Shown here: positions 6,225-46,228 of the stretch, piece after piece
Numbering within the stretch: position 1 is the first letter of the stretch
How the letters are laid out: the number at the start of each line of letters is the position of its first letter
IMG/VR virus record: IMGVR_UViG_3300017991_000109
Span: 1 to 64,000 of that record
Length of the DNA: 64,000 nucleotides
Reading direction: 5' to 3' (one strand)
Source: a virus
Position numbers and translations under genes: made by a program
Notes under the pieces: generated by a model
The model's database searches: none
The model's input: the letters and a program-made list of their open reading frames with translations, nothing else
Told to the model about the DNA's origin: nothing

Positions 6225-7211
6225 ATGTTACCGACTCCACGTATAATCGAATCGCTACAAGCCATCTTCTCAATCGTCTACGCGGCTGAGACTGATGAGA
6301 TTGCTGTCAATTGCCCTTATTGCACTTATCGCAAGATGTCGGAGGACAAAACCGGACATCTGCATCTCAATTTTGTCAAAAACGCAGCCCACTGTGTCAA
6401 ATGCGATTGGGGACACCCGAATTTAAGAGATTGGCTCAAGTCAAAGAACTTCGATGGTATCCTCCCCCTTCCACGACCTTCTGAACTCTTTGTAAAACCC
6501 GAACCAAAACCATACCAGCTTCAAAGCGCAGCACTGCCTAAAGGATGCTCCTTGATGAGCCGAATCGATCAAGACGAATTTGCTCAGAGTCTGCTCGATA
6601 AAAATCTAGACCCTGATGACTGGGTTAATGCTCGTTGCTTCAAATGCACTAGCGGAAAGCATCAAGGGTATGTCATCTTTCCATTCTACGAAAATAACAA
6701 TTTAGTCTACTGGCAAGGTCGGGCAGCATGGGAAGGTCTCATAAGAAAAGCAAACCCGTCAAAATCAGAATTAGCTCTCGGTCGGGCTTCTTGGTTGTAT
6801 GGATGGCAACCTGATATCCCTCCTGGTTCGCATATTCACCTATGTGAGGGCACTCTTGATAAAATTTCCGCAGAAAAATTCGTTCGTAAGCATTATGGAG
6901 AAGATCACTTCGTCTTTGCTTTGCAAGGTACTGCGTTTTCTTTCCCTGATGGAATTATTCATCCTCTCAATACTCAATTCGGTAAACTATCTTCTATTCA
7001 ACCAGCGGACGTAAACATTCTCTTTGATCCTGATGCAATCTACAAAGCCAAAGGCTTAGCAAAACAACTTCAGCTATGTGATTTTGAAGTCAGCGTATCA
7101 GAGCTTGTTAACGGAGATCCAAATGAGGTTTCAGATGAAGAGCTTAAAAGCGCACTGGATAATGATTGGGGGAATTCATTGTTATCAAAACTACAGACCA
7201 GTAAAATATGA
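6225..7211 (+). CDS. DNA primase: zinc ribbon plus TOPRIM (328 aa)
   Basis: Makes RNA primers for lagging-strand synthesis. The N-terminus has a zinc ribbon with Cys30-x2-Cys33 (CPYC) and Cys57-x2-Cys60 (CVKC). The C-terminal half has TOPRIM features: an acidic LCEGTLDKISAEKF and a second acidic strand NILFDPDA with a downstream helix. It lacks a fused helicase, so it resembles T4 gp61 rather than T7 gp4. A longer frame from a TTG at 6192 is possible, but that TTG lies in the middle of a palindrome, so ATG 6225 is preferred. It overlaps the next gene by four bases. Confidence 0.85.
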   Translation: MLPTPRIIESLQAIFSIVYAAETDEIAVNCPYCTYRKMSEDKTGHLHLNFVKNAAHCVKCDWGHPNLRDWLKSKNFDGILPLPRPSELFVKPEPKPYQLQSAALPKGCSLMSRIDQDEFAQSLLDKNLDPDDWVNARCFKCTSGKHQGYVIFPFYENNNLVYWQGRAAWEGLIRKANPSKSELALGRASWLYGWQPDIPPGSHIHLCEGTLDKISAEKFVRKHYGEDHFVFALQGTAFSFPDGIIHPLNTQFGKLSSIQPADVNILFDPDAIYKAKGLAKQLQLCDFEVSVSELVNGDPNEVSDEELKSALDNDWGNSLLSKLQTSKI

Positions 7212-7795
7212 AATTAGACCAACTCTATGATCTAGGTAAGCCGATAGTCGAACAACTATCATACTCGTTTTTCGCCAAAAACAGAGAGGCTTACCAGATT
7301 CAAGGCATAACAGTGGAAGATTTACAAAGTTATCTTTGGGAAGTCCTTTACGCCAAATATGCCCCCACTGTCGAAAAGAATCCGACATACTACGACGAAG
7401 AATCGTTCAAAAAATCTTTCTTTGTTGGAGGTAGGAAGGCTCTTTTGAGCCATGTCAAAAAATACATCCAATCGAGGAAACGAGGAGACTTCATCAAAAA
7501 AGGAGCTATTTACCTAAATAGCCCTCACCCAACCACAGGCATGGAAACAGAACTCGGCTCCGAACAAGAAGACGAGTATCTCAAAAAAGTCAAGCACGCT
7601 GTTGATAAATGTGATAACCCTCTCGCGCAAAGAGCACTTTTCTTAGTAGCCACCGAAAAGTATAGCAGTAAGAACCAACTTAGAAAACGCCTTCAGCTAC
7701 CCATAAATCAATTCAACTTTATCTGGGCAGAAATTCAAAAGGCGCTTTCTGATTTTGTATTCACACCTCAACAAGAAGTTCAAATTTATGAGTGA
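7208..7795 (+). CDS. Putative sigma-like transcription factor (195 aa)
   Basis: Residues about 35-100 resemble sigma-70 region 2: VEDLQSYLWEVLYAKYAP, then YDEESFKKSFFVGGRKALL and a basic YIQSRKRGDF. The C-terminal part (KNQLRKRLQLPINQF) could be a helix-turn-helix. The layout parallels the intein-split sigma factor at 9620. It is coupled to the primase by a four-base overlap. Function is inferred: it could redirect host RNA polymerase to a phage promoter class, or be a helical replication factor. No -10-binding residues can be confirmed by eye. Confidence 0.45.
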   Translation: MKLDQLYDLGKPIVEQLSYSFFAKNREAYQIQGITVEDLQSYLWEVLYAKYAPTVEKNPTYYDEESFKKSFFVGGRKALLSHVKKYIQSRKRGDFIKKGAIYLNSPHPTTGMETELGSEQEDEYLKKVKHAVDKCDNPLAQRALFLVATEKYSSKNQLRKRLQLPINQFNFIWAEIQKALSDFVFTPQQEVQIYE

Positions 7796-8222: not shown

Positions 8223-9099
8223 TAAAGAGACCGAAATTATAGAGCCACGTCCAGCGGGAGTTCTTGAAGCAGCCGACTTCGAGGATGTCTTAGTTCGTAC
8301 TGCAACTGAGGATGATCGTGATTCTCACTTCCTTCGCCAATATACCGTGGGAGTCAAACAGTGGGTACAAGGCGTTGTCAATATTAAGGGGAAACCTATT
8401 CGCCTGATCAAATCAACTCCTATGCGAGCTTTTGCCGATTACCTCTGTTTGTTAAAAGAGGAGGATAATCCTATTGCTTCACAACTCGAAGATGCTGACT
8501 CCCTAGCACGCTTTCCGATGCCTATTGTCATAATGGGAAGACCTTCTTGGGAGTGGCGAAGTGATTACGGTAACTCAAAATCAACCGTACGTAGAATCGG
8601 ATTATCAGACGATAATCTAAAGACAGGTTGGAGTCATGCTCCCCGACCATTAGATATTACATTCACACTAGACTTCTACGCTAAAACGGAGTTACAGATG
8701 GGATGGATCGTCACTCAAATAGAGAAGCAATTTTACCCCCTCGCATATGCTAAGATTCCAAGTGCATATCGAGATGTTCAGGATGATCCGGCATACAACC
8801 GCTGGATGCCTATCAAACACGGGGGTTTTCAAGATAACAGCGAGTTAGAGCCAGACACCGCAGGAGATCGTCTACTAAGACAGACACTAACCATCACTGT
8901 CGAAGGCTATCTGTTCTACGACATTAAAGAAGCTCCAATGGCTCACAGGTGGAACTTAGAAGTAGATATCGACTCTGGAGACGAAGTTGAAACCAACGAA
9001 CTTGATGTTAACGACTCTGCGCCGACTTTAACTTCGAGTGACGTTGACGAGCTGCCCACCCAACCTCTTGAGCCTTCGACGGATGGAGTAGTTGTATAA
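8209..9099 (+). CDS. Virion structural protein, possibly tail-completion (gp15-like) (296 aa)
   Basis: The core contains PMPIVIMGRPSWEWRSDYGN followed by PRPLDITFTLDFYAKTELQM and a helix ending IEKQFYPLAY. That order (variable strand, P-x-x-L/I-x-I-x-x-x-x-x-F, then an E-Q-I-x-P-F-like helix) is reminiscent of T4 gp15 tail-sheath stabiliser proteins. The likeness is weak and by eye. The last 60 residues are acidic, Thr/Ser-rich and probably disordered. The 3' end overlaps the converging peptidase gene by 92 bases. Confidence 0.5.
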   Translation: MSLLDKETEIIEPRPAGVLEAADFEDVLVRTATEDDRDSHFLRQYTVGVKQWVQGVVNIKGKPIRLIKSTPMRAFADYLCLLKEEDNPIASQLEDADSLARFPMPIVIMGRPSWEWRSDYGNSKSTVRRIGLSDDNLKTGWSHAPRPLDITFTLDFYAKTELQMGWIVTQIEKQFYPLAYAKIPSAYRDVQDDPAYNRWMPIKHGGFQDNSELEPDTAGDRLLRQTLTITVEGYLFYDIKEAPMAHRWNLEVDIDSGDEVETNELDVNDSAPTLTSSDVDELPTQPLEPSTDGVVV

Positions 9100-9589
9100 A
9101 GTGAGTCCACTCCTTTTTCCACCGACTAGCATACTGATCGAATCGAGGGTCTCTTAAGACTGAAACAAGAGATTCTTCGTCATAGAGATAGGTCTTAAGG
9201 TTATCCCATGATCTTAGTATAAACTCATCTCTGAGAGGTTCTGGCACAAATTTATACCCTCGCAAGTTAGCGTCAATCTCGTACAGAATGTCTCTTTCAT
9301 GGTCCTCATCAGTCTCTTCAATTGTATGCCAGACTGACTCTTGACGGTCCCACATAGTCTCATCAGAGGCGTAAATCGCATGACCTAATTCATGACACAG
9401 AGCGAAAAGCGCCTCCTTATCTGACTGCCCTTTCTTCAGCAGGATCTTCTTGGTCCCGTCATCCTCGATGATATGCCAGTTCCCGAAGCACTTTCCGAAT
9501 AGCGGATGATAAAAACCTTCGTTTAGCATCACGCTATATCCAAGCGCGTACAATTCACTTCGGGCTTCTAAAAAGGCTCTTCTGATCAT
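9008..9589 (-). CDS. HExxH zinc metallopeptidase-like protein (193 aa)
   Basis: Residues 63-73 read ALCHELGHAIY, a gluzincin/IrrE-type HExxH site (His66, Glu67, His70). A helix with Glu/Asp about 30 residues downstream (DILYEIDANLRGYKF) may supply the third ligand. Such phage proteins are sometimes anti-repressor-type (ImmA/IrrE) proteases, and the substrate here is unknown. It has its own promoter-like sequence (9596-9623) with the -10 only six bases from the ATG, and it points against the preceding structural gene. Confidence 0.7.
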   Translation of the reverse strand: MIRRAFLEARSELYALGYSVMLNEGFYHPLFGKCFGNWHIIEDDGTKKILLKKGQSDKEALFALCHELGHAIYASDETMWDRQESVWHTIEETDEDHERDILYEIDANLRGYKFVPEPLRDEFILRSWDNLKTYLYDEESLVSVLRDPRFDQYASRWKKEWTHFIQLLHPSKAQEVGWAARQRHSKLKSAQSR

Positions 9590-9595
9590 GAAGAC

Positions 9596-9623
9596 AGTAT
9601 GATCAGAAAATCAGGAATGTCAA
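9596..9623 (-). promoter_or_regulatory. Promoter-like element for the metallopeptidase
   Basis: On the minus strand TTGACA (9618-9623), a 16-base spacer and CATACT (9596-9601) precede the ATG at 9589 by six bases. The -35 is a perfect consensus and the -10 matches four of six. Transcription would be expected to begin at or beside the start codon, so the mRNA may be leaderless. It shares the TTGACA half and spacing with the elements at 19817, 31409, 46076 and 48538. Confidence 0.5.
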
Positions 9624-11713
9624 GTCATTTTTGGCAACGATTCCACTGTTGGATACAATTCCACGTCTTCAAGCACTCCCGCTTTGATGTTAGTCACAAT
9701 GTTCTCAAACGCCTCTTGGATTTTAGCAGGGGATTTTCGATATTTCTTACCCAAACGCTTAACATTCTCTTGTGAAGAGTCTTCTGACAAGCTCGTGTAA
9801 ATAGAAACAGCTTCCTGCCATTTTCGAACTTGCTGGACGCTGGGAAAACGGATTGAAATACCTGCGAAGACATTCATCAACTTAACCGTATTATCCAACC
9901 CTACTGCGTTAATCACATCAGGAATCAAACTGAATTTCTGGGCAGCGCGTACAACATCAACAGTCCCTAGAGGCTGGTTATAGTGATCTAACAATGATGC
10001 TCGAACAGCTCCGTGTGACCAGTCCAATAGAAAGCGAGCAGTGTCCTGGTTTATATCCCATCCCAGAATCGATGTTTCGATGATTGCCTGTCTACGATCT
10101 CCTCGCCCTTTAAGGACACAAGATACCATATACCTAAGTACCTCTTGAATCACAGGCTCTTCCCAACGGCAGTATATCTCTGAGGCTACCTTCTGAAGCG
10201 TCTCTACCAGAACATCAGAAATATCCGAAGAAGGCGCGTCATAACCTTCCATGATGGTTTCTAGAGGAACATCTGTGACTGCAAACCTTTGGTTAAACAA
10301 GCTCTCTTTACCAACTATCGATAAACATCCATTCCTAATACAATTATGTACTAACACACCCTCTGCAAAATAACAGTGTGTGTTTTCTACAGTAATGTCA
10401 TATTTCCAATTTAAGTCTGGGGTATAATGGACCTGCTTCCAATCACCATCATGTCCCGAAATATACTCCTGTAGCTGAATATTGAGCTGAGGCTCCTGCG
10501 CAAGGCTTCTAATCTCAGTATCACAAACAGAAAGAACTTCTTTCATCCAAGAAGATTCAACGTACTGACCACGATATCTTTCAGGTAGCTTATATTCCAT
10601 AGATGGAACAATGTACGGAGCAATTATCTCAAACCAGCGATCTTTACTCTCAGAAGCTAAACACAGATAGTGATAACCTTGTTTACGTCTTGTCTTTTTC
10701 CATGTAACCCCCCATTTAGAAGCAAACCACTCCACTAGTCTATCAACATCTTCTTCCGAAAATGACTCAGTATGCAACGTAGTCCTATCGCCCGTAGTTC
10801 TACATCCGTCATCCATGAACCAATAAGCGAGAGCAACTTCGTTCATGGATTCTAGAAACTTCTCTGGAACATATTTCTTTCCAGGTATAACCATCTCTTC
10901 GATACCCTCAAATATAGGTCTTAGGGCTTTACCAAATTTGAACTCTGGATTGGTACCGTAAACTGAATCAGCCGCAGTAGATTCAGTTATAGAACTTCCC
11001 AGCTTCTTAGCTTTATGCTCTACGTAGCTCTTCTGAGGAGATGTATGAGTGCAGTTGAATACATAAGATGATCCTGAAATACTGCCATCACCCAGATAAC
11101 TACCCATAATGGCTTGTTTTCCATAGTCTGTTAAAACCTTATGATACATACGATGAGACGTAGTATCCTCTGAGTCATCTAGAGAGACCCATACATTATC
11201 ACCTGTGTAAAATTCGTGGTTACCCGTAAACAACAGGCGTCTACGCTTACCATCAGGTCTTTTTATGGACACACGCCTCCACTCATCTCGACTAGAGGGG
11301 ATCTTTGACCAATCAGTAACCTTATTGTAACAAAAAGCTTTCTTATCAGTATCGTAAGATAGTACCGACACGTCTAGTTTGTTCTCAACAATTTCTTGGA
11401 TCGTTTTAACTCCCTGATCGGTCATTAACCTATGGTGCCCACATGAACAAGCACTGAAGTACGTATAAATCTTACCGTCTTCGGGTTTCCATTTCCTGAT
11501 CCAATTCTCGATCTGAAGATATAAGCTGTTTTTTATATCTCCAAACGGGACTTGCCTATCAAATTTATTGGTGCGAATGATCGCATCCATCAAATTACTT
11601 GACTCTTCGCAAATCTTACGGTAAGAAGTAAAATCCCCGTCTTTACGGTATTGAAAAGCAAGGGTCTCTACAACATCGTTATCGAAGACGTTTTGTTTTT
11701 CTTTCTTTGCCAT
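9620..11713 (-). CDS. RNA polymerase sigma factor-like protein interrupted by an intein (697 aa precursor)
   Basis: After removal of the predicted intein (residues 89-457) a 328-aa protein remains. Its N-terminus carries a sigma region-2-like stretch, FGDIKNSLYLQIENWIRKW then YTYFSA joined to CIRNGCLSIVGKE. This pattern of Asp-x-K helix, tyrosine/phenylalanine and N-x-C/A-L is typical of region 2 in phage late sigma factors such as T4 gp55. The middle (about 480-560) is helical. The last 110 residues (DVINAVGLDNTVKLMNVFAG, then a basic helix) resemble a Mor/C-type activator and the separate protein at 12313. It may direct late transcription. It is divergent from the RuvC-like gene. Confidence 0.75.
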   Translation of the reverse strand: MAKKEKQNVFDNDVVETLAFQYRKDGDFTSYRKICEESSNLMDAIIRTNKFDRQVPFGDIKNSLYLQIENWIRKWKPEDGKIYTYFSACSCGHHRLMTDQGVKTIQEIVENKLDVSVLSYDTDKKAFCYNKVTDWSKIPSSRDEWRRVSIKRPDGKRRRLLFTGNHEFYTGDNVWVSLDDSEDTTSHRMYHKVLTDYGKQAIMGSYLGDGSISGSSYVFNCTHTSPQKSYVEHKAKKLGSSITESTAADSVYGTNPEFKFGKALRPIFEGIEEMVIPGKKYVPEKFLESMNEVALAYWFMDDGCRTTGDRTTLHTESFSEEDVDRLVEWFASKWGVTWKKTRRKQGYHYLCLASESKDRWFEIIAPYIVPSMEYKLPERYRGQYVESSWMKEVLSVCDTEIRSLAQEPQLNIQLQEYISGHDGDWKQVHYTPDLNWKYDITVENTHCYFAEGVLVHNCIRNGCLSIVGKESLFNQRFAVTDVPLETIMEGYDAPSSDISDVLVETLQKVASEIYCRWEEPVIQEVLRYMVSCVLKGRGDRRQAIIETSILGWDINQDTARFLLDWSHGAVRASLLDHYNQPLGTVDVVRAAQKFSLIPDVINAVGLDNTVKLMNVFAGISIRFPSVQQVRKWQEAVSIYTSLSEDSSQENVKRLGKKYRKSPAKIQEAFENIVTNIKAGVLEDVELYPTVESLPKMT
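10343..11449 (-). mobile_element. Intein with LAGLIDADG homing endonuclease (369 aa)
   Basis: It starts CSCGHHRLMTDQG (Cys1, block A), has a block B FTGNHEFY and ends DITVENTHCYFAEGVLVHN followed by Cys+1 (blocks F and G). Two endonuclease motifs occur: IMGSYLGDGSIS (intein residues about 114-125) and LAYWFMDDG (about 207-215). All splicing residues (Cys1, His of block B, His-Asn at the C-terminus, Cys+1) are present, so protein splicing is predicted. The insertion point is the conserved region-2 helix of the sigma host, typical of homing into an essential motif. Confidence 0.92.
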
Positions 11714-11783: not shown

Positions 11784-12344
11784 ATGAAGAAATCTGTAAT
11801 AATCACTGGGTGTGACCCTGCTTTTAGTAACTTTGGCATGGTGAAAGTCGAATACGATCTGGAGAGGTGTAAAATCATTCGAGTTATCGAAATGGAACTA
11901 ATCCAAACTAAGAAATCAAAAGAGAAGGGTATCAAAAAAGTAGATGACGACTGGGCTAGAGCATGTCACATTGATGACAGGCTCACAAAATTCGTTGCAG
12001 ATTCTGACCTAATTGTTGCAGAGATCCCCTCAGGAAGTCAGAGCGCGACTGCAAGTAGAGGTCTGGGAATAGCAACTGGGTTACTAATCAAGCTAGATAG
12101 TCTTCTAGTTCGTGTTACTCCAACGGATGTGAAAAAAGTTGTTGGTAAGAGGCAGACTTCTAAGAAAGAAATGATCGAGTGGGCTGTTGAATGCTTCCCT
12201 GAGGCTCCTTGGTTACGCACTAAGGATAAAAATCAGCGAATCAAGAATGATAACGAACACTTAGCAGATGCACTAGCAGTTATCTTTGCTGGAGAAAAGA
12301 AGGGAGACTTCTTTAAAATCTTTCCTTCGGATCACCCTTCTTGA
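11784..12344 (+). CDS. RuvC-like Holliday-junction resolvase (186 aa)
   Basis: RNase H-fold signature: ITGCDPAFSNFGMV (first Asp at residue 11), then LIVAEIPSGSQSATASRG (Glu) and a C-terminal DNEHLADALAVIFAG with the last Asp residues. Length is close to bacterial RuvC (about 170 aa). It would cut branched recombination or replication intermediates before packaging, the job of T4 gp49. The 3' end overlaps the converging gene by 32 bases. A TATATT lies six bases before the ATG, without a clear -35. Confidence 0.8.
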   Translation: MKKSVIITGCDPAFSNFGMVKVEYDLERCKIIRVIEMELIQTKKSKEKGIKKVDDDWARACHIDDRLTKFVADSDLIVAEIPSGSQSATASRGLGIATGLLIKLDSLLVRVTPTDVKKVVGKRQTSKKEMIEWAVECFPEAPWLRTKDKNQRIKNDNEHLADALAVIFAGEKKGDFFKIFPSDHPS

Positions 12345-12741
12345 TTTTAGGATGATCGTATTTGTTTCGCTGCAAATACTGTCGAGCTTCCTCTACTTGA
12401 TCATCTACAGCCTTTACGGTCTTAAGCACTCTTCGGATAGCTGTGACCGTGACCTTAAATTGTGCAGCAGCCTCCTGCTCAGTTTGCTCTTCCGAATAGA
12501 CTGACCAAGCTGCTGCTGTAGTATTCAGACTCTCTACCAGAGATTGCGCTGTTGGTAACTTCAGCTTTTCTCCTCCAAAAATGAGGACTAGTTGTATCGT
12601 GGCATCCATGCCGATTGCATCAATTAAATGATACAGATCGACATGGTTATTGGCCAAAGCCAGACTCATCATCAGTTCTGGCTTCCCGCGATTTTGAAGT
12701 CTGTCTAAGACCTCTTTTTGTTTAGGTCTCGGATTCGGCAT
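12313..12741 (-). CDS. Mor-like transcription regulator, paralogue of the sigma C-terminus (142 aa)
   Basis: Residues about 34-60 read LYHLIDAIGMDATIQLVLIF followed by GGEKLKLP. This is the I-G-x-x-A-x-x-L-x-x-x-F-G-G-x-x-x-x-x-P pattern of Mor/C activators of Mu-like phages, which bind DNA as dimers. A helix-turn-helix-like stretch (QEAAAQFKVTVTAIRRVLK) follows. The same two-part layout forms the end of the intein-bearing sigma factor, suggesting a shared domain. It overlaps the co-chaperonin gene by 20 bases and is probably co-transcribed with it. Confidence 0.55.
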   Translation of the reverse strand: MPNPRPKQKEVLDRLQNRGKPELMMSLALANNHVDLYHLIDAIGMDATIQLVLIFGGEKLKLPTAQSLVESLNTTAAAWSVYSEEQTEQEAAAQFKVTVTAIRRVLKTVKAVDDQVEEARQYLQRNKYDHPKIKKGDPKERF

Positions 12742-33853: not shown

Positions 33854-35859
33854 TGCCTAAGTCAAGTGGATCAAGAAGTCAACTTTGGAACCTCTTCGGG
33901 TGGTTACAGCCTCGTCCTGATAACCTAACTCGCCAAGAACAGGATGATATCCTTACTTTTGACCAAAAAAATGGCTTTGCTGAAAAGCCTAAAGGCACGA
34001 CCTATTATTTCGATCAGATTACCCCAAATGAGGGGACTGTTGATCATCTGGCAGAATTGGAGTACATGGCAAAGTCTGAATTTGTCAGTCCCTTTATTGA
34101 GCTTATCGCAGAAGAGTGTGCTCAGCCTGACATCAACACAAAAAAGACCGTCTGGTTTACATGTACCGATGGAACTATCGAAGAAGAGTTAAATGACATG
34201 CTCGATAGAGTCGGTATCGAGAATATTGTCTATTCTATTTGCAAAAAGGTTGCCGGAACAGGTAATGACTACAAACGAATTTTGCGAAGTCAAGAAAATG
34301 GTATTGAGCAGCTTGTCAGCGTACCCCTGACCGATGTAGAGCGTGTCTGGGACAAGACTACAAGAAAACTCCTTGGATTCCACTGGAAAGAGCAGGAGCC
34401 TGATACTGATAATGTTATCAAACTCGGTCAGGGAGGTAAAGGTATTGAAATTTTTGCTCCATGGGAGTTTATTCATTTCCGTCGTATGGAAGATTCCAAT
34501 ACGGAATATGGCACAGGTCTTTTGGACGCTGCTTGGCCATTATACAAACGTCTTAAAATGGCTACTGACCAGATGGTTCAGTATCGCATGCATATGATGC
34601 CTACTAGACATGCGATGTTCATTGATACAGGAAATAAATCTCCTTTTGAAGCGGCTGAAGAAGTTAACATGTTCAAAATGCTGTTGCGTAATGCAATGGT
34701 GGTCGATCCTGTTCAGAGTCGATTGGATAGTCGATTCAACCCACCTGCTATGGACAGCATGTTGTTCTTTCCAAAGAGGAAAGATGAGACTACTTCCATC
34801 GAACCAATGCAGGGTGACAAAGACATACCTGACGTGTATGATATGGACCTGCTCTGGAAGCAGCTCTTCATGCAAGCACGTGTGCCTAAAGCCTATTTAG
34901 GTTGGGAGGAGAATACGGGCATTGCACAGGCTTCACTTGTTTCCCAAGATATCCGGTTTGCCCGAATGATTCGGACATTGCGGAAGCCCATAGTTGAAGG
35001 TGTTCTAAAACTTGGACACCTACACCTTGCCTTCAAAGGTATCGATCCCAGCCAATACAAAATTGAGGTTGAGATGAGTAAAATCAGTGCCTTGGAAGAG
35101 GAGCTGAATGCTGCGACTATCGAAAGACAAGCTGATATCGCTAATACCCTCGTTGGGTTGTGTCAATCACTTGAAATACCAAACCGTGATATCATGGACT
35201 TGGTATTCAAGGAGTACCTCCATGTACCCCGTCACTTCATCGACTTGGCTAAGCTCTCGACAGCTATCGAACGAGCTATCCACGGTGAAAATGGTCCAGA
35301 AGGTGCTGAAGGAGGTGCTATGGGCGGTATGGGTGGAATGATGGGAGGTGGCTTCGCAGGAGGTCTTGGAGGAGAAATGGACGAAGGCGAAGCTGGAGGT
35401 ATAGGCGACGAACTCGGCTTGGAAGATCACATGGAAGATGAGGAACCCTTGCCAGAGCATAACTCCAAGTATCTAGGGACCTCACTAAATGAGTCACTAG
35501 TTCAAAGGGTGTCTGGTGTTGTTTCCGAGATCAGAAATCATCGAACTACCTTAACTGAAAGTGCCCGTAAAGAAAACACCCTTCTGATCGAAACTAGCTT
35601 CAAGAAAATCAAAAGAGCTATTTCGGACGTTGCAGATATTCAAGGAGGAGGTAGGTGTAGCGGTATGGAAACTTGGAAGCCTAATCCTTTCTTGTGGGAA
35701 TCTGCGCCTAAAGCTGGGAATCTTCAAGAATCTCTTCAAGAACAAAGATCTTTTGCTAAATCTTGTGGTGACAACTTTACTTCAGGTATTGTTGAATCGA
35801 CAAAAACTGAAGCTGAAGAGCATCCAGCAGTTAAGATGAGACGCAATGCAAAAAGATAG
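33853..35859 (+). CDS. Portal vertex protein, gp20-like (668 aa)
   Basis: The T4 gp20-like core is readable: SEFVSPFIELIAEECAQPD, LRSQENGIEQLVSVPLTD, WEFIHFRRMEDSNTEYGTGL and RVPKAYLGWEENTG. It forms the dodecameric channel at the capsid vertex. The C-terminal third carries a Gly/Met-rich stretch (about residues 483-518) and an acidic tail that are unusual additions. Shares one base with the preceding gene. Confidence 0.9.
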   Translation: MPKSSGSRSQLWNLFGWLQPRPDNLTRQEQDDILTFDQKNGFAEKPKGTTYYFDQITPNEGTVDHLAELEYMAKSEFVSPFIELIAEECAQPDINTKKTVWFTCTDGTIEEELNDMLDRVGIENIVYSICKKVAGTGNDYKRILRSQENGIEQLVSVPLTDVERVWDKTTRKLLGFHWKEQEPDTDNVIKLGQGGKGIEIFAPWEFIHFRRMEDSNTEYGTGLLDAAWPLYKRLKMATDQMVQYRMHMMPTRHAMFIDTGNKSPFEAAEEVNMFKMLLRNAMVVDPVQSRLDSRFNPPAMDSMLFFPKRKDETTSIEPMQGDKDIPDVYDMDLLWKQLFMQARVPKAYLGWEENTGIAQASLVSQDIRFARMIRTLRKPIVEGVLKLGHLHLAFKGIDPSQYKIEVEMSKISALEEELNAATIERQADIANTLVGLCQSLEIPNRDIMDLVFKEYLHVPRHFIDLAKLSTAIERAIHGENGPEGAEGGAMGGMGGMMGGGFAGGLGGEMDEGEAGGIGDELGLEDHMEDEEPLPEHNSKYLGTSLNESLVQRVSGVVSEIRNHRTTLTESARKENTLLIETSFKKIKRAISDVADIQGGGRCSGMETWKPNPFLWESAPKAGNLQESLQEQRSFAKSCGDNFTSGIVESTKTEAEEHPAVKMRRNAKR

Positions 35860-35870
35860 TATCTATTTGT

Positions 35871-38800
35871 ATGCCTGAATTCAGCATACAGAACCTTACG
35901 ACATACGCGCACCCGATTTACTATCTCGATAGTGATGCTTCGCAACAAAGTCGTATAGTAGAATCAAAGCAGATAGCAACCTTCTTTGCTAATGAGCTTC
36001 TACCAGCGACCTTAAATGCGATTGAAGACAAACATCTAAAACTGGTCACTCAAGTCGAAACTGCATTCGTATCACCTAAAGTTCCGACCAACACTATTGG
36101 TCTAAGCACAGTCGGAACATGGGGTCAAAACACAAGGTACGTTCCTGGGAACCTAGTCTACTATGGAGGAACCTACTACATAGTTTTAAATGAGGTAACA
36201 GGCACAACAACGCCCGATGTTGATACAACAAACTATGGTCCTTTCTCCCTCTCATCACCTGAAGCTTTTTTTGGAATTAATGAAGGTGATTTCAATGAGG
36301 GTGAAGGTATTTTCAAAACTGCTGGGGGTTGGGAGAACACGAAAATCACTGACACTCAAGTTGATACTCTCAGTATCTCAAAAATCACTAACTTACAGAC
36401 CACTCTAGACGGTAAGTTATCACTTACAGGAGGGACACTTACTGGGGCAGTTCTTACATCTGTAACTCCAACCGTATCAACACATCTTACTAACAAAGCG
36501 TATGTTGATACAAAGCTGCCATTGGCTGGTGGAACAATGACTGGAGCGCTTACCTTGTCAGGAGCACCCTCCTCAGGACTTCACGCTGCCACCAAAGATT
36601 ATGTCGATGCAATAGGTTCAGGCTTCATACAGACCACAGGAGCCACTATGACAGGGGCGCTGAATCTGAATGGGACCTACACCCTTGGAACTCATGCTAT
36701 CGACAAGGATTATGCGGACCAGAAACTATCAAAAAGTGGCGGTACAATGACGGGGTATATCACCCTTCATGCCAACCCAATTTCTGATCTACAAGCTGCG
36801 CCAAAGCAATACGTCGATACAATGGTTCCTCTAACGGGAGGCACAATGACGGGACTACTGACACTCAGCGGAAGCCCCTCCAACGCAAACCATGCGGCTA
36901 CCAAGAACTATGTTGACACTGCCGATAATCTGAAATTATCTTTGGCTGGGGGTACAATGACTGGAGCGCTTACCTTGTCAGGAGCACCTACGGTTGATCT
37001 TCACGCATCCACTAAAAAGTATGTTGACGACAGCATAACTACTCTTGGAAATGCCTCCCTTGCCCTTGTAGGAGGGACAATGACAGGGTTTGTAACCCTA
37101 CATTCAGCGCCAACTTCTGATTTACACGCTGCTACCAAAAAGTATGTCGATGACGTATTTGCAGGAGACATCAGTGTGAACTTCCTATCACTGGCTGGAG
37201 GGGTAATGACTGGAGCCATTACTGGGGATCACGAGTTGCTGCCTCTGGCTGGTGATACTATGACTGGTCCTATTGTGCTATCATCACAAGCATCTGGCAC
37301 AGGGTTGTTCGTTAGCAGCACAACAGGTGAGCCGATGTATTCTACAAAAAGAATTCTGACGGAGCCAACCGCGCCATCTACAATCACAGCAGATTACACC
37401 GTTACAAACACAGATAGAGAGATTCTGGTCAACAACACAGATGTTGTAACAGTCACACTACCAGTACCTACTGGATTCATCGATCCAATTCGAATCGAGA
37501 AAACCTCAAATAACAGCACTGTTGTGTTGATTACAGCAGAAAACTCAACTGGTAGGAACGCAGATACCGTTCTGACCATTCCGTCTCAATCGATCACACT
37601 TTACCCATCTAGCAATTCTTGGCGAATCAGTGAGAGTTATGTTCCGACAACATCGAACTTGTACTTCACGTGGGACGATCCTGTCGATAATGGCAATGCT
37701 GTTGAGGTAGTGGGTCGTTTGAAGACACGTTCATCCGCCCAACAACAGTTTACAGCCGTCACAGACGAAGGTGGGGGGCAAATTAGCTTTACAGTTGATT
37801 CGACTACTGGTTTTTCAGCTAACCAAACACTGATAGTAACTGCGAGCCCACAGTATGCTGGCGAGTATAAGATCGATAGTGTTACCTCGACAAAAATCTT
37901 TGTAACTGCGTCCTACTCATCAAACGAAAGTGGCGGTTTTTGTACATCCCACACTTACAGCGCATTGTCTTCAGCAACCACTGTTCTGGTAGCATTGAGT
38001 AACAACACTTATGACCCTACTGAACTTGTCCTGACACTGGGCGCACTGGAAATGACAGTCCTACAAGGTTCAATTGTCGATCGTTACGGGAACTGGATTT
38101 TCAAACTAGAAACAACTTCGACAGGGGTTTTTGAAATCAGTGTCGAAGACATAAATGGTTCACCTAATATTGATACCGTATTAGGCTACCTACATGTTCT
38201 TTCTGCGGGTCCTCCTGATTCTAACATCTACCCGCAATATAGCAGTCTTGTCAGCGACACATCGAGATTTCAAAAGAACTTCACAGCAATTGCTCAAAGC
38301 ACTGCTACAGACTCCATCGTATCCTCACAACCTCCTGTCGCTGTAGAGACGGGTAACGCCATTACAGATGCTACAGGAGATGGAGGAGGTGTTTGGATAG
38401 CCGTATCAGACGACAGCTTGTGGATAGAGGGATTCGAGGCTATTATCAGTAACTCGACAAGCTACAACGGCACTCAAACTGTTTTGGAAGTTGACACTGG
38501 AAACGATAGGATTCGTCTTGATGTAGCTTATGTCGCAGATGAAACAGGAGACATCTACTCCAATTGGACATCGTCTGCTATTCAGTCGGTTGAAGAGAGT
38601 ACTACTCTTGGTAATATCTTGTTGAATTTGAATTTCTATCCATCTCATCTCGGATCTGGAGATGATATCTCCATTACAGGAACCACGAGTTATAATGGAA
38701 CGCACACAATCGTAGCCGCTGTAGGCAATCAGATTGAAATAACGGATACTTTCGTTGCTTCGGAGACAGGCATTGCCTCTTATGTAAGTAGCGCGACTTT

Positions 38801-39368
38801 AATTGAAGTTGCCGATTCCTCACAATTCAATATCGAAGATCCTATCTCTATCTCTGGTTCTGCTAGTTACAACGGGGACCATATTATTGTGAATAATTTC
38901 GAAGTATCTAACCAAATATGGATCGACACTCCTTATGTTGCTAATGATGTTGCAGGAACAGTTACTAGCGAAGCATCTGTACTAACGATATCAGGAGGTT
39001 ACGACCAAGAGTATAAAGCTGGAGATGATGTTACAATTATTGGCAGCTCCAGCTCAGACGGCTCTTACCAAATCCAATCAACACCCAACTCGACTACGGT
39101 ATCTATAAATCTCAGGTTTGTAGCTACGGACTCTGGGGCACTTCGAAACGAAGACGTTGTGACCTTAACAACAGTCAATGGCACAGGGCTTGAAACACTC
39201 GATGGTATTCTTGTCAAAGATGTCGAGATCCTTGGAGGAGATATCAGTAGCGAAGCGCTCTCAGCTTCAGCTACGGAAGTGACTGTTAGGGCTCCTTATG
39301 GGACAGGAGGATTGACAGGGACTATCGAACAAGTAACCTCAAAACGACTAGACTTCCAACGTAGATAA
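35871..39368 (+). CDS. Long tail fibre with two repeat families (1165 aa)
   Basis: After a globular N-terminus (residues about 1-180; virion-anchoring by inference) come nine copies of an LAGGTMTGALTLSGAP-type unit, most followed by HAATKxYVD, a fibre shaft repeat. A middle domain follows, then four S-x-SYNG/SSDG units spaced 50-60 residues apart. The last 60 residues are beta-rich. Probably the distal receptor fibre. It starts 11 bases after the portal gene. See the DNA-level repeats listed separately. Confidence 0.85.
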   Translation: MPEFSIQNLTTYAHPIYYLDSDASQQSRIVESKQIATFFANELLPATLNAIEDKHLKLVTQVETAFVSPKVPTNTIGLSTVGTWGQNTRYVPGNLVYYGGTYYIVLNEVTGTTTPDVDTTNYGPFSLSSPEAFFGINEGDFNEGEGIFKTAGGWENTKITDTQVDTLSISKITNLQTTLDGKLSLTGGTLTGAVLTSVTPTVSTHLTNKAYVDTKLPLAGGTMTGALTLSGAPSSGLHAATKDYVDAIGSGFIQTTGATMTGALNLNGTYTLGTHAIDKDYADQKLSKSGGTMTGYITLHANPISDLQAAPKQYVDTMVPLTGGTMTGLLTLSGSPSNANHAATKNYVDTADNLKLSLAGGTMTGALTLSGAPTVDLHASTKKYVDDSITTLGNASLALVGGTMTGFVTLHSAPTSDLHAATKKYVDDVFAGDISVNFLSLAGGVMTGAITGDHELLPLAGDTMTGPIVLSSQASGTGLFVSSTTGEPMYSTKRILTEPTAPSTITADYTVTNTDREILVNNTDVVTVTLPVPTGFIDPIRIEKTSNNSTVVLITAENSTGRNADTVLTIPSQSITLYPSSNSWRISESYVPTTSNLYFTWDDPVDNGNAVEVVGRLKTRSSAQQQFTAVTDEGGGQISFTVDSTTGFSANQTLIVTASPQYAGEYKIDSVTSTKIFVTASYSSNESGGFCTSHTYSALSSATTVLVALSNNTYDPTELVLTLGALEMTVLQGSIVDRYGNWIFKLETTSTGVFEISVEDINGSPNIDTVLGYLHVLSAGPPDSNIYPQYSSLVSDTSRFQKNFTAIAQSTATDSIVSSQPPVAVETGNAITDATGDGGGVWIAVSDDSLWIEGFEAIISNSTSYNGTQTVLEVDTGNDRIRLDVAYVADETGDIYSNWTSSAIQSVEESTTLGNILLNLNFYPSHLGSGDDISITGTTSYNGTHTIVAAVGNQIEITDTFVASETGIASYVSSATLIEVADSSQFNIEDPISISGSASYNGDHIIVNNFEVSNQIWIDTPYVANDVAGTVTSEASVLTISGGYDQEYKAGDDVTIIGSSSSDGSYQIQSTPNSTTVSINLRFVATDSGALRNEDVVTLTTVNGTGLETLDGILVKDVEILGGDISSEALSASATEVTVRAPYGTGGLTGTIEQVTSKRLDFQRR
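36417..37320 (+). repeat. Tandem fibre-shaft repeats (GGTMTG type), about 9 units
   Basis: In-frame units of about 90-130 bases encode GGTMTG-x-LTL...AATKxYVD. Two segments of 35 bases are identical at 36534-36568 and 36954-36988, 420 bases apart. Such identity could allow recombination that changes fibre length. Confidence 0.8.
38421..39150 (+). repeat. Second fibre repeat family (SYNG units), 4 copies
   Basis: Four divergent protein repeats, each with I-S/T-x-S-x-SYNG (or SSDG), then a V/I-x-I strand and a Y/F-V-A-x-[ED]-T/V element. They resemble small beta domains strung before the C-terminus. Boundaries are approximate. Confidence 0.65.
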
Positions 39369-39437
39369 TGAAATTCTTAGCACTGTTTACCATCGTCCTA
39401 CGCCATCTGAGCCAATTAAGAAAACTGTAACAGCCTA

Positions 39438-39932
39438 ATGGGATTTTCAAGTGTATTCGGCAGAATTGCTCCAACGGCAGAACCAATGCGTTCGTGTCAT
39501 GGTGACATATTGGTATCAGCACCTGCTGGTTCTTTCAGGGGAGGGATTATGTGTCGAAACCTAAGCCCTGCTGGGACAAGTATTTCTCCTAACCCAATGC
39601 TTGGACGAAATATGCTGGTACCTATTCCAGGTAATAAAAGCAGCGGAAGTGCAAGTCTCTCATTCTTCATTTTCAATGATACTGAAGCTTGGAGATTCTG
39701 GAAGAATTGGTCTAGTTTAATCTACGATGTCAGAACTGATAATGTAGCACTGTTCCATGAAATTGCGGGGACAGCGGTAGTCTCATTACATGGTCCAGGA
39801 GGGGGAAAGGTAGCAGACTGGACCATGGAAGGCTGCTGGCCAAGTAACGTTACACCTTCGGCTCTCGACTCACAAACCGAAGGGACTCCAGCATCTATCG
39901 ATGTAACTCTTGAGTGTGCTGCCGTTAGATAG
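39438..39932 (+). CDS. Tail-tube-like protein (gp19/gp54 type) (164 aa)
   Basis: The C-terminal signature DWTMEGCWPSNVTPSALD then ASIDVTLECAAVR matches the L-E-G-x-x-P-x-x-V-x-P-x-x-L-D...V-T-x-x-x-x end of T4-type tail tube and tube-initiator proteins. A second, more typical tube protein runs off the right window edge (63624-64000). This copy may therefore be a gp54-like tube initiator rather than the bulk tube subunit. Converges with and overlaps the frameshift extension at 39925 by eight bases. Confidence 0.6.
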   Translation: MGFSSVFGRIAPTAEPMRSCHGDILVSAPAGSFRGGIMCRNLSPAGTSISPNPMLGRNMLVPIPGNKSSGSASLSFFIFNDTEAWRFWKNWSSLIYDVRTDNVALFHEIAGTAVVSLHGPGGGKVADWTMEGCWPSNVTPSALDSQTEGTPASIDVTLECAAVR

Positions 39933-40110
39933 ACATAGGAGGGTAATCTTCCATCAGCTCCTTTGTGGTTCTATGCCACTCCATAACCAAGTTTAGAGGC
40001 TCATTCACTAGAAACGATTGTTGCCCTCCACCAAAACGGCAAATCTCAAGGATCAGTCTGTAGTTTAATTGATGCTGCCGAAGTGCGCGTTCGCTAACTT
40101 CGGCTCCGAC
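39925..40110 (-). CDS. Apparent +1 frameshift extension of the 40094-40948 gene (61 aa)
   Basis: Downstream of the zinc-ribbon gene the +1 frame stays open for 61 codons to a TAA at 39925-39927. It reads ERALRQHQLNYRLILEICRF then LNLVMEWHRTTKELM. It has no ATG, GTG or TTG before its middle. The frame opens after a TAA at 40126-40128, and the upstream gene stops at 40094-40096. Inside that 30-base shared window lies TTT-TTT-C (40111-40117), where a Phe-tRNA could slip from TTT to TTC. The fused protein would be 340 aa, as in tail-assembly chaperone pairs that use frameshifting. Confidence 0.6.
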   Translation of the reverse strand, partial: VGAEVSERALRQHQLNYRLILEICRFGGGQQSFLVNEPLNLVMEWHRTTKELMEDYPPMSI

Positions 40111-40948
40111 GAAAAAAGTCGGCTCTTAGCGGTAGCTCATTCGGATAGACGTGACCGCAATTTTCACATTCAATCTCTCCTGTAAACGAAATTCCACATT
40201 CCTTCTCAGTGATAGCATCTGACAAGGCGACCATATCAACACCTTCGATAGCTTTCACATAATCTTCAGCTTCGAAAGGCGTATCAGGCATACCTCCATT
40301 GACAGAATGGATGTGACTCGCAATACGCGCAATTTCCTGCTCTTCAGTCACGTTAGTGGCACCGCTCTTCTCAAGAGTTGCAAAACGCTCGCCCAGAAGC
40401 CTTTCGCCTCCCAATGTAGGGAATTGGAGCTGAACAGCGTCTTTGATGTAGGGAAGCTCGACTGTGAAGAACTTATCATCGACCATAGAACCTCCACGTT
40501 TGGATACATTTTCAGGCGCGTTCACGTCCGAACCTTTCTTCGGCTTGATAGGATCATCTCCGTTGAACCAGATGTGGACAGGAAGTTCTTCTGGCACCGA
40601 GAAGGTGTGTTTTTCTTCGTGACCACAAGCAGGGCACTTTGTAGTGAAGGTGTAGTGCTCTCCATAAGTCAAAGCCCTAGCGCATGCAAAGATAAAGTAC
40701 GCATCAGCAACCAATAGCTGGTCTAGGTCGAAACCTTCGGGAAAGACAGTTACCTTCTCCAAAATGGCTTTCATCTTATCGTGCCACTTCCTGTTAGAAA
40801 TGAGATAACCCTCTGTAACAAAGCTATAGGGTTTGATTGCCAGTTCTTTCGGGAGTGAATCCCCGTAAGTGTAACATCCAGATGGAAGTTTATGCACCTG
40901 CTCCCTAGCAGGAATCTTCATCGAGTTCAAGTTTGATTCTAATGCCAT
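40094..40948 (-). CDS. Baseplate hub/tail-assembly protein with zinc ribbon (T4 gp26-like) (284 aa)
   Basis: LPSGCYTYGDSL near residue 20, a helix LDQLLVADAYFIFACARALT then YGEHYTFTTKCPACGHEE (first CxxC) and a second CENCGHVY near the C-terminus match the T4-type baseplate/chaperone family (gp26/gp51-like) containing a zinc ribbon. It may help tape-measure or hub assembly. The zero-frame ends FFRRSRS; a +1 shift at the FF codons would add 61 residues. Coupled to the 117-aa gene two bases upstream. Confidence 0.65.
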   Translation of the reverse strand: MALESNLNSMKIPAREQVHKLPSGCYTYGDSLPKELAIKPYSFVTEGYLISNRKWHDKMKAILEKVTVFPEGFDLDQLLVADAYFIFACARALTYGEHYTFTTKCPACGHEEKHTFSVPEELPVHIWFNGDDPIKPKKGSDVNAPENVSKRGGSMVDDKFFTVELPYIKDAVQLQFPTLGGERLLGERFATLEKSGATNVTEEQEIARIASHIHSVNGGMPDTPFEAEDYVKAIEGVDMVALSDAITEKECGISFTGEIECENCGHVYPNELPLRADFFRRSRS

Positions 40949-40950
40949 AA

Positions 40951-41304
40951 TTATTTCTTTTGAAATTCTGTGTTTGTAAATTCAACTACTTTCTGAGCAA
41001 GTTCGGGACGCTCTCTCAAAAGTGTCCCGATATGGGCTAGTTTGAAGTCTGTTTCTTTTCTCTTTTCTCTGTCGGTTCTTTGTTCTTCCAATTCCTCTTG
41101 CCATTCTGACACGTCTACCGAGATTGCTACAGAATCCTCTAATCTCCAAAGTTTTAAATCCCATTCCTCCGCAGCGCCCCATCTTAAAGTAGCGTTTGTC
41201 CACTCTTCTTGAGCATACTTAAGGGCAGATTCATCGTCTGGAAAGGGTAGTATCCATCCAGACGTTGTTTGATTGTTAGAAACTAGTGCTAGAGCATAAA
41301 TCAT
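40951..41304 (-). CDS. Hypothetical protein (117 aa)
   Basis: Begins MIYALALVSNNQTTSGWILP. A small beta domain with WNLK-like aromatic strands is followed by a long acidic/basic helix (EWQEELEEQRTDREKRKETD) and a helical C-terminus. It sits in the hub/PAAR operon, two bases before the gp26-like gene and one base after the PAAR stop. No family recognised. Confidence 0.7.
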   Translation of the reverse strand: MIYALALVSNNQTTSGWILPFPDDESALKYAQEEWTNATLRWGAAEEWDLKLWRLEDSVAISVDVSEWQEELEEQRTDREKRKETDFKLAHIGTLLRERPELAQKVVEFTNTEFQKK

Positions 41305-41305
41305 T

Positions 41306-41578
41306 TCAATCTCCTACGAACACTTTTTCTGAGAGATTTGATACATTATGTCCACAATCTAGATCATCTCCTTCTCGGCACACACTTTGGTTCTCGCATT
41401 TTACGGTCCCACTTCCGCTTGTAAACTTCCCTATAATCAGATCATCAGTGTGAGGTGAAGTCATGGTCCCAACCACACACACCAACTCATTATTGATGTA
41501 GACTGACTGTTGAGGTGATGATACAAACGTACCTCCCTCCTCACAAGCATCTTTATTCAGTTTCGCCGCTTTTTTCAT
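41306..41578 (-). CDS. PAAR-like spike-tip protein (90 aa)
   Basis: Pattern SVYINNELVCVVGTMTSPH, then GKFTSGSGTVKCENQSVCRE and GDDLDCGH is the PAAR layout: V-x-x-N-x-x, two H/C positions and G-D-x-x-x-C-G. PAAR cones cap the central spike in contractile systems (T4 gp5.4). ATG 41578 gives the family size of about 90 aa; the longer frame from 41647 lies in the previous gene. It overlaps the HTH gene by 26 bases and probably caps the 4687 spike. Confidence 0.75.
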   Translation of the reverse strand: MKKAAKLNKDACEEGGTFVSSPQQSVYINNELVCVVGTMTSPHTDDLIIGKFTSGSGTVKCENQSVCREGDDLDCGHNVSNLSEKVFVGD

Positions 41579-42053
41579 GTTGGTAGAGATAGATAGAGAT
41601 ATTTTTACCCTTCTCAGGTTTACAAGACACTTGAAGCTTGAATCCAAACTGTTTGATCTTACGATTCAGAAACTTCACGAAATCAGTGTCGTTTGTGCGA
41701 AGCTCTATGTCGTGTCCTGCTTCTAAAGCTTCGAGCATAGGCTTGGCTTCTAAAAATGATTTGTCTTCTTTAAGAACATTTGGGAGGGTCTCCCACACTG
41801 CGCGTGCTTTGTAGCCTGTGGTACCGAACGGATCAGGCGCATTGAATATCTGGCAAACATACTGGCGCTTGCAACCGATTCTACGAGCTATCTCAGCTTG
41901 TACACCTGTCTTGGCATACCTTAAGGAATCTAAAAGATCTAGGTAATATTCTCTCTCTTCCGAACTTGGCCAAGTTGGAACATCTGCTTTGGGAACACCT
42001 ATAGGCGCTTTACCTTTAGTCTCCCCACCGAACAATTTAGAAAACACCTTCAC
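41553..42053 (-). CDS. HTH (XRE-like) protein (166 aa)
   Basis: Residues about 45-72 read YAKTGVQAEIARRIGCKRQY then VCQIFN, a helix-turn-helix of the Cro/CI class (Q-x-x-I/L-A-x-x-x-G-x-x-x-x-x-V/I-x-x-x-x-N). The C-terminal half is a small alpha/beta domain with a charged tail. It starts 17 bases from a 16-bp hairpin (42070-42110). It may autoregulate this tail operon. Confidence 0.6.
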   Translation of the reverse strand: MKVFSKLFGGETKGKAPIGVPKADVPTWPSSEEREYYLDLLDSLRYAKTGVQAEIARRIGCKRQYVCQIFNAPDPFGTTGYKARAVWETLPNVLKEDKSFLEAKPMLEALEAGHDIELRTNDTDFVKFLNRKIKQFGFKLQVSCKPEKGKNISIYLYQHEKSGETE

Positions 42054-42069
42054 AAGTTACTGCATGAGA

Positions 42070-42110
42070 TTGGATTGGTGTACAACTTGAGTCTTTGTAC
42101 TCCAATCCAA
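42070..42110. promoter_or_regulatory. Long inverted repeat upstream of the HTH gene
   Basis: Left arm TTGGATTGG-T-GTACAA (42070-42085) and right arm TTGTAC-T-CCAATCCAA (42095-42110) pair over 16 positions with a single T:T mismatch around a nine-base loop. No T-tract follows on either strand, so it is not a standard terminator. Its place 17 bases before the ATG at 42053 suits an operator or a translation-controlling hairpin. Confidence 0.6.
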
Positions 42111-42193
42111 ATAGAACACCTGTCCAGTAGGTTTCTGACGATCTTTTTCTCTCTCCCAAGTGATATCAGTTTTCTAGGGGAAAGGGTGAAACA

Positions 42194-42436
42194 TTAAGCG
42201 AACTTTTTCAGGTTGCCCAAAATCTCATGGATTTCTCCTGAGTGCATCCGTAAATCACGAGGCTCTAACTCCTTGTAATCAACGTCTTTGATTTTTTCAA
42301 ACCTCTCAACAAATTCGTTAAAAATAAGTTGAAGTGCTTTTGGTTGGTCTGAAACATCGAGGGAAAGCAACGGGGTAAGTTCATCCAATTCTCTTTCAAT
42401 CCGCTCAATCCTTCTATCTCTTGTAGTTGTTTCCAT
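42194..42436 (-). CDS. Small coiled-coil protein (80 aa)
   Basis: Starts METTTRDRRIERIERELDEL; heptad-like Glu/Arg/Leu pattern through the first 30 residues, then LIFNEFVERFEKIKDVDYKE. No metal or enzymatic motif. A -10-like TATAAG lies just before the ATG, with operator-like repeats upstream. Function unknown. Confidence 0.65.
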   Translation of the reverse strand: METTTRDRRIERIERELDELTPLLSLDVSDQPKALQLIFNEFVERFEKIKDVDYKELEPRDLRMHSGEIHEILGNLKKFA

Positions 42437-42601
42437 GCCTTATATTCGCACATTGTGCAGTTATTACAAGTTCTTTTTTTTTTTTTCACTTTGTGCATTT
42501 TTCTTTATATTGGCGTATGACATAGCAGGAATTTATTCAGGATTACACTCATCAGCAGATCAAAGCGGCATTTCCGAAGATTAGTCTTTCCGCGCCGTGG
42601 C
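42437..42601 (-). promoter_or_regulatory. Regulatory region with operator-like repeats and T13 tract
   Basis: This 165-base gap holds no gene. On the minus strand it has TGCACAAAGTG and TGCACAATGTGC (GCACA-A-TGTGC is a perfect 11-mer palindrome), separated by a run of 13 A residues (T13 at 42474-42486 on the plus strand), then TATAAG close to the ATG at 42436. The repeats look like sites for a dimeric regulator. The neighbouring HTH protein is one candidate. Confidence 0.5.
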
Positions 42602-42811
42602 TCATCTCAATCGTTGTTGAAATCGGTATTGCATGACCGACCACGGCCCACCTCCGGTATATTCTTTTTCTCCGTATGGATCGTTGTTTTCGTGCCAATC
42701 TCGATTTCTCTGGTCTGCCTCATCTTCGGCGCGTGATCGCTCAAACATGTAATAGTCACTCCACTCGTATTCTCCGAGTTCGTCACTGTGTAGCAGGTAT
42801 ATAGCATCCAT
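42602..42811 (-). CDS. Small acidic/aromatic protein (69 aa)
   Basis: Starts MDAIYLLHSDELGEYEWSDY; very rich in Glu, Asp, Tyr and Arg, with DWHENNDPYGEKEYTGGG. It follows the DNA polymerase stop by 12 bases. A competing frame over the same bases (42607-42834) gives less protein-like sequence. No recognised family. Confidence 0.55.
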   Translation of the reverse strand: MDAIYLLHSDELGEYEWSDYYMFERSRAEDEADQRNRDWHENNDPYGEKEYTGGGPWSVMQYRFQQRLR

Positions 42812-42823
42812 ATCTCCTTTGGA

Positions 42824-45800: not shown

Positions 45801-46066
45801 GCCACATCTCGAAATCCTCTTTCAGCCAAGATTCCCAAATCCTGATCGATTGTACGATCTGGGACTTCCCCAATGTAAACGATCCAACCCCCTTCAGGAG
45901 TAAACTCTGGTATCCCCATAACCAGTTCACCCTCTTCGTTTAGATAAACACCTTGGGTGAAGTCGAATTCCAACGCTGTTGGATCGAGTTGAGGACTATG
46001 AAAGCAAAAGCCGCATTTCTGGCAAATCTCGTTAGATAACGAGGGTTTTAAAGTCTCAGGTGTCAT
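42824..46066 (-). CDS. Family A DNA polymerase with N-terminal UDG-like domain (1080 aa)
   Basis: Residues 1-230 resemble family 4/5 uracil-DNA glycosylases: Cys15/18/21 (possible Fe-S ligands), WIVYIGEVPD (motif 1), ATKCRP (near residue 109) and PSAFILGSHAACKMVLG. Then comes a 3'-5' exonuclease (SWDVETC, GHNTSFDEKAVY, AAYDTKTV) and the polymerase with motif A RDYSGLEVR, motif B QRSICKNVLFGRLYGQ and motif C LVHDSIWVD. Both activities look intact. A UDG-polymerase fusion is known in SPO1-type phages. ATG 46066 begins the recognisable protein; a frame to 46303 covers the repeat-rich gap and is rejected. Confidence 0.92.
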   Translation of the reverse strand: MTPETLKPSLSNEICQKCGFCFHSPQLDPTALEFDFTQGVYLNEEGELVMGIPEFTPEGGWIVYIGEVPDRTIDQDLGILAERGFRDVANGLVEVGQIDRVWYHPATKCRPLIERQIPDQDNPKVRNKVIAPPKKLSVTQYQKCWNFIWPDIKAVKPSAFILGSHAACKMVLGSGALNSMQGKRYLVDINLDGKEVSIPTFPVINQENVRQDDRLRWPDFIQELKTIFHKIDNPMSFDFVDVDGWMDFVWGLTIDRVKDWFRPIWEKTGYLYPLSWDVETCSVDYLWGAHFKVGIFSFDSPLQEKPLIVVTSDYKYAKEAFEKFAPEAERSFEQEEADILKELQKVLEEPSIRKIGHNTSFDEKAVYSRYKWNVKGFLADTRIIDYILNAEQQGGRTLNDLIRRELQWLPEYWKVMDKFREENPDLGYNYVDYPIDLVIPYAAYDTKTVSMIYEKVLKKLIDAAEEDFGGEFPISDGDNISAPTYSLFQYHFFARRIHYQLCNHLGKVGQYIDKELLGKVSEIYENDLAEMQRDLREDPLVQQFEWTWLLRCYKSDSQNARKLVKHLEPVQRMVSVRHGKPVAEDEVPPPLDWNRDKDILMSEEFVQYRPTMSWGSPNQVQMLFYEFMGLEPPGYTDADNPSTDHAALVSLASRQECKLADKLLKYRATEKFLSGFIRPFASEEDSLIKAENLVHADFLPAHPRTGRLSCKAPNIQQLPRDGLVKKLYCSRFTDNPGRTKRGWIIQRDYSGLEVRVLACLSRDERLVDDFLNGRDPHFRTQRKFFGELADKHNKNQRSICKNVLFGRLYGQTAYGLLFLLRGRGIKSPFTGEEITLQECELLNQMIDDLYEGVAEWVNNAHAQGILKKHVCSPFGFVRPLPVLKSWQRYMEGIENYDKSRSFGFLKSEIKAALRKAQNSPIQSSASDLTVFAGWEVKKRIDAAGIKAEVIALVHDSIWVDCALDSDVSRVIKIMKDVMDFAPEWLPNCLPGFDPSWMIVPIIGESEFGLNAKDTFTSCEEPSSYHPDDKLVVEVANDFLSENAVANLVGVDKSNEKWWKVPFDDNLPILKKALHAKKNAF

Positions 46067-46075
46067 TGGCTGGTA

Positions 46076-46102
46076 GGTTTCGACAGTCTGAGTAAAAATC
46101 AA
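46076..46102 (-). promoter_or_regulatory. Promoter-like element for DNA polymerase
   Basis: Minus strand TTGATT (46097-46102), 15-base spacer, GAAACC (46076-46081), nine bases to ATG 46066. The downstream bases (TACCAGCCA) closely resemble those after the helicase element (TCCCGCCCA). Confidence 0.5.
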
Positions 46103-46163
46103 GTTCAAAAATAACTGGAAAAATGTCACAAAAAACTGCTTGACAGATCGGGGTTTTGCCCCC

Positions 46164-46191: not shown

Positions 46192-46228
46192 TTAAATTTA
46201 GTACCCTGGCGAACCTCGCTAACTCGAT

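Follow-up and report, generated by a model that had tools for sequence, protein, structure and literature searches.

A class 1, probably homing, intein inserted in a probable gp55-like sigma factor of a T4-superfamily phage

The stretch of DNA analysed here (64,000 nucleotides, hereafter the window) covers nearly the whole of the IMG/VR viral record IMGVR_UViG_3300017991_000109 (64,021 bases). Its major capsid protein falls in the T4 superfamily (phrog_138, 3.7e-46), and other genes of this superfamily in the window encode a portal (phrog_213), baseplate parts, SbcC, UvsX, a helicase and a DNA polymerase A. Late sigma factors of the gp55 type are common in the T4 superfamily. On the minus strand, a single open frame encodes a 697-aa precursor that combines a 328-aa sigma-like extein with a 369-aa intein, and displays the following features (positions of the window, residues of the precursor):

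9620-11713, minus strand: precursor gene, 697 aa, stop codon included
11450-11713, minus strand: N-extein, residues 1-88, sigma region-2-like and ending in KIYTYFSA (family profile alignment over residues 3-94)
10343-11449, minus strand: class 1 intein, residues 89-457, 369 aa (PF14890, TIGR01443, motif inspection)
11411-11449, minus strand: block A with the catalytic Cys1, CSCGHHRLMTDQG (read from the sequence)
11201-11242, minus strand: block B (TxxH), RRLLFTGNHEFYTG, with TGNH within residues 158-171 (read from the sequence)
10646-11116, minus strand: LAGLIDADG homing endonuclease domain, residues 200-356 (PF03161, I-SceI match, matches of the precursor model)
11075-11113, minus strand: endonuclease motif GSYLGDGS, the first LAGLIDADG motif
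10799-10837, minus strand: endonuclease motif AYWFMDDGC, the second LAGLIDADG motif
10340-10405, minus strand: blocks F and G and the +1 Cys, KYDITVENTHCYFAEGVLVHN (TIGR01443, sequence)
9623-10342, minus strand: C-extein, residues 458-697, starting with CIRNGC, its first ~25-35 residues continuing the gp55-like family alignment
9710-9940, minus strand: residues 592-668, weakly similar to Mor/C-type activators (PF08765, 1.6e-4 for the spliced protein)

Immediately downstream of the precursor gene lies a gene resembling IrrE/M78-type metallopeptidases (9008-9589, minus strand; PF06114 3.5e-4, just below the cut-off). After a primase-like gene, a 195-aa product is encoded at 7208-7795 (plus strand) that looks by eye like a second small sigma-like protein, with FKKSFFVGGRKALLSHVKKYIQSRKRGD followed by an HTH-like end; it has a 24% homologue in a relative of the phage (G006), and profile tests gave no support for its sigma-like character. 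Rfam and tRNA scans returned no matches. Another viral contig, IMGVR_UViG_3300018080_000472 (28.7 kb), is 100% identical to the window over the tested stretch 35000-47728.

The boundaries of the intein given in the preliminary description proved exact by the open frame and by motif inspection, and the splicing blocks listed there were all recovered. The sequence shows Cys1, T-G-N-H in block B, GSYLGDGS, AYWFMDDGC, YDITVENTHCYF, block F, the HN pair and the +1 Cys. The N-terminal nucleophile is Cys89, and the combination of Cys or Ser with a block B TxxH, together with block F and a C-terminal His-Asn followed by Cys, Ser or Thr, is that of class 1 inteins; the match to TIGR01443 ends at residue 458. 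None of the 369 intein codons is a stop or carries a frameshift. When confronted with family models, as had been suggested, the intein blocks gave a divided result: PF03161 (LAGLIDADG_2; 3.6e-25, 89.3 bits vs a cut-off of 25) and TIGR01443 (intein_Cterm; 1.3e-6, 28.4 bits vs 15.6) lie above their cut-offs, whereas PF14890 (Intein_splicing; 2.9e-7, 30.8 bits vs a gathering score of 35.8) and TIGR01445 (intein_Nterm; 0.058, 14.4 bits vs 24.5) lie below. The LAGLIDADG identity already proposed is borne out by PF03161 and by the two intact motifs, both of which keep their acidic Asp end. The domain also matches phrog_11023 (LAGLIDADG homing endonuclease, 2.9e-17), and I-SceI is its nearest solved endonuclease (1.4e-10).

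The nearest phage inteins by sequence are of the same type, with a LAGLIDADG endonuclease, and include those of KLEP7 (RNA ligase), L002 (terminase-like), LR756508 (unnamed protein) and DNA polymerases; they differ from the present one by their host proteins and sites, and are only 23-28% identical to it. None of the 46 matched phage records, several of which are without annotation, bears a sigma factor annotation for the matched protein. One of these genomes, LR756508.1, a 484-kb uncultured phage, holds a related intein in another protein (L001 2764-4545) along with an intein-free member of the sigma-like family described below (L012 395-1105).

In Pfam and PHROGs, the spliced 328-aa extein had no match to a named sigma family, and the curated sigma models PF04542, phrog_234 and phrog_1740 all failed to detect it. 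With PF04542, even T4 gp55 scores no better than 0.087, so that this model is no fair test; on the strength of the curated model results, the protein is filed here as gp55-like and not as a gp55. Direct searches of phages and viral contigs with the spliced extein yielded no confirmed relative, their single hint being a sub-threshold one (Microcystis phage Mel-JY01, E=4), which led to a family of uninterrupted proteins. Members of this family occur in Rhodothermus phage RM378 (p020), Flavobacterium phage immuto, Mel-JY01, a huge phage and at least 80 IMG/VR viral contigs, and are annotated as hypothetical proteins where annotated at all. A profile of 19 non-redundant members detected the spliced extein with 21.2 bits (E=9.4e-9 in a search of one sequence) and the precursor with 15.8 bits; the highest score among 5000 shuffles was 11.3 bits, and that among unrelated ORFs of the window 2.7 bits. 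The search sets being tiny, the shuffles are a better guide than the E-values. The alignment runs straight across the splice junction, as does a phmmer alignment with a single homologue (extein residues 1-122, E=6.4e-10 in a set of one). The preliminary description had called for homologues lacking the insert: more than 80 uninterrupted ones are now aligned across the junction, and the spliced protein outscores the unspliced one for 21 of 24 family representatives. These homologues join at the same point as the extein halves, as expected for the host protein of a class 1 intein, and are distant (20-30% identity). Homology extends from extein residue 1 to ~122; the family differs from the present protein by the absence of an intein, by another C-terminal domain and by the +1 residue, which is V or I in most members and Cys here. 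Alignments of the precursor with homologues used truncated rows. A full-length version, in which the C-terminus of the homologues was placed in the intein, was discarded, and so was one in which the precursor was set against a second intein in full, which mispaired the N-terminus.

Closer relatives with an empty site were sought as well. A junction-pattern search found no close intein-free allele, a prokaryote genome scan gave no match, and no clear sigma or intein gene was present on the contigs of five relatives whose capsid protein is 54-65% identical. One of these (G006, capsid protein 60% identical) encodes a short uninterrupted ORF (55715-56179, minus strand) with SAYTYLSTQIRR / SAYTYLSTQIRRSA, which aligns to extein residues 10-98 with 30% identity (Z=8.8, 0 of 2000 shuffles as good). 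With E=0.33 among 2883 ORFs, this match is only suggestive, and the ORF is a possible empty-site relative. A truncated 61-aa match to the extein C-terminus lies at the end of the same contig.

Structural comparisons are consistent with a sigma factor family. The AlphaFold2 model of one family member (L016; pLDDT 79, 16-sequence alignment) has four helices in its N-terminal part and is helical in its C-terminal part as well, and its matches in the PDB are mostly sigma factors (SigH, WhiG, sigma32, sigmaS, SigE region 2 and T4 gp55), none of the matches reaching E 0.001; the TMt reaches 0.58 for SigE region 2 and 0.56 for T4 gp55 (7d7c). Many of the BFVD matches to the family model are named phage sigma factors; the top match is unnamed and may itself be a member of the uninterrupted family, because its 264 residues equal the length of RM378 p020. 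The family profile also aligned along 97 columns with one built from seven gp55 proteins, a weak match (P=0.0028). This gp55 profile gave no direct match to the extein, and the link between extein and gp55 therefore goes through the intermediate family. The whole-precursor model is of low confidence (pLDDT 57) and retrieves I-WcaI (2.4e-8), I-SceI (3.8e-7) and the VMA1 intein, together with a number of sigma factors at E 0.02 or worse, which support the sigma reading without proving it. The sigma-like fold anticipated for the spliced protein was thus found for a family homologue. The rejoining of the extein halves into a sigma region-2-like sequence, a mere resemblance when first proposed, is upheld by profile and fold, the homology to sigma region 2 being indirect, through the family profile and the family fold. 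The identification of the host protein as a phage sigma factor holds on the same basis: since no named sigma model detects the extein, it is the homologous family, with its fold, that justifies the word "sigma".

The position of the insertion relative to the promoter-reading surface can be read against T4 gp55, which shares with this protein a sigma-2-like helical domain and aligned promoter-reading positions (PDB 7d7c; PMC7892883), and whose phage shares the virus superfamily of the present one according to the capsid protein. T4 gp55 differs by its size (185 aa), and by having neither an intein nor a Mor-like C-terminus. When the extein and seven annotated gp55 sequences were aligned jointly, extein residues Y83, Y85 and S87 corresponded to T4 H95, Y97 and T99, and W75 to F86. 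In the gp55-polymerase structure, promoter bases -12, -9 and -8 sit in pockets lined by these T4 residues, Y97 and T99 reading the -10-like promoter element, and alanine changes at the pocket residues impair open-complex formation (PMC7892883). The splice site lies one residue past S87, the position of T99. The earlier proposal of an insertion in the region contacting promoter DNA or core polymerase is thus supported, the joint alignment placing the intein within the promoter-reading segment of the sigma-2 domain. The T4-type late promoter TATAAATA was found 0 times in the window, for 1.8 expected.

Taken together, we consider it highly probable that a mobile class 1 homing intein has entered the gene of a gp55-like phage sigma factor, which would become active only once the intein is excised. 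The intein would excise itself after translation by the standard Cys1/Asn-Cys+1 route, and ligation of YTYFSA to CIRNGC would restore the helix that follows the promoter-reading loop. The LAGLIDADG domain is predicted to cleave those alleles of co-infecting relatives that lack the intein, which would thereby be copied into them (homing). The spliced protein would guide the polymerase of the host to promoters of the phage, possibly to late promoters. As 369 residues come between the -10-reading residues and the remainder of the sigma-2 fold, the unspliced precursor would be inactive, and from the insertion site the activity of the sigma-like protein very probably requires splicing, on which phage transcription could in turn depend.

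Two other readings concern the nature of the components. The extein could be a helical transcription protein of another kind that binds DNA or RNA polymerase and has a sigma-2-like segment, for example a Mor-type activator whose N-terminus is sigma-2-like, an idea fed by the named sigma families that do not match the extein, by the weak Mor match in the C-extein and by a Mor-like gene nearby. This match (22.1 bits on the spliced protein vs a PF08765 gathering score of 24.9) amounts to a resemblance and not to Mor membership; a profile of four neighbouring or relative proteins scored 11.9 bits on the Mor-like segment (best shuffle, 7.1). The nearby gene (12313-12741, minus strand, 142 aa; Mor/late-activator-like, phrog_836 3.8e-7) resembles the C-extein; a homologue of it lies at G003:32891-33322, with a weaker one at G004:35238-35639. 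Past ~35 residues, the C-extein does not match the uninterrupted family, the C-terminal 200 residues being different, and a kinship of the C-terminus of the gp55-like family with the Mor-like domain found no support in a profile test. However, the part that the extein keeps in common with the sigma-like family includes the promoter-reading positions, which makes a non-sigma protein unlikely. The extein may join a sigma-2 domain to an activator-like DNA-binding domain, a combination that the sequence comparisons suggest. As for the intein, the scores of TIGR01445 and PF14890 below their cut-offs could be those of a dead or chance intein-like insertion, a pseudogene without splicing, but the complete catalytic residues, the uninterrupted codons and the intact endonuclease motifs render this highly improbable.

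Granting a splicing intein in a sigma factor, its excision could further act as a regulatory switch, the sigma factor being made as an inactive precursor whose slow or conditional splicing would delay or gate it, and hence time a class of phage transcripts. The insertion separates the residues predicted to read the promoter from the remainder of sigma region 2, so that activity should need splicing, and conditional splicing is documented elsewhere, as for the Pyrococcus RadA intein (PMC5790916), which makes a transcription gate possible. Against this, inteins commonly occupy conserved functional sites without any regulatory role (PMC7765530), and the endonuclease looks intact in both acidic motifs, as for a mobile and not a domesticated intein. 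We therefore regard the intein as more probably mobile than domesticated for regulation, and consider the switch quite unlikely.

Inteins of phages usually reside in replication, packaging and nucleotide enzymes. We found no earlier case of an intein in a sigma factor in the openly accessible literature, and a survey of mycobacteriophage inteins lists none, the word "sigma" being absent from its main text (PMC5050341). The kind of element is known; its host protein and site are apparently new. The nearest functional parallel is provided by the TFIIB inteins of Methanocaldococcus (MjaTFIIB, whose endonuclease domain is degenerate, and MvuTFIIB; PMC6801210), which likewise lie inside a factor bringing RNA polymerase to promoters; these are archaeal and cellular, and TFIIB is analogous to sigma in function only. 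The phage intein would represent a bacterial-virus counterpart to them. The analysis also brings to notice a large uncharacterised phage family (RM378 p020, immuto, Mel-JY01) whose members resemble gp55-type sigma factors. Finally, because the activity of the sigma-like protein very probably requires splicing, splicing could be read out as transcription and, should it indeed gate transcription, its rate would set the timing of a phage gene class.
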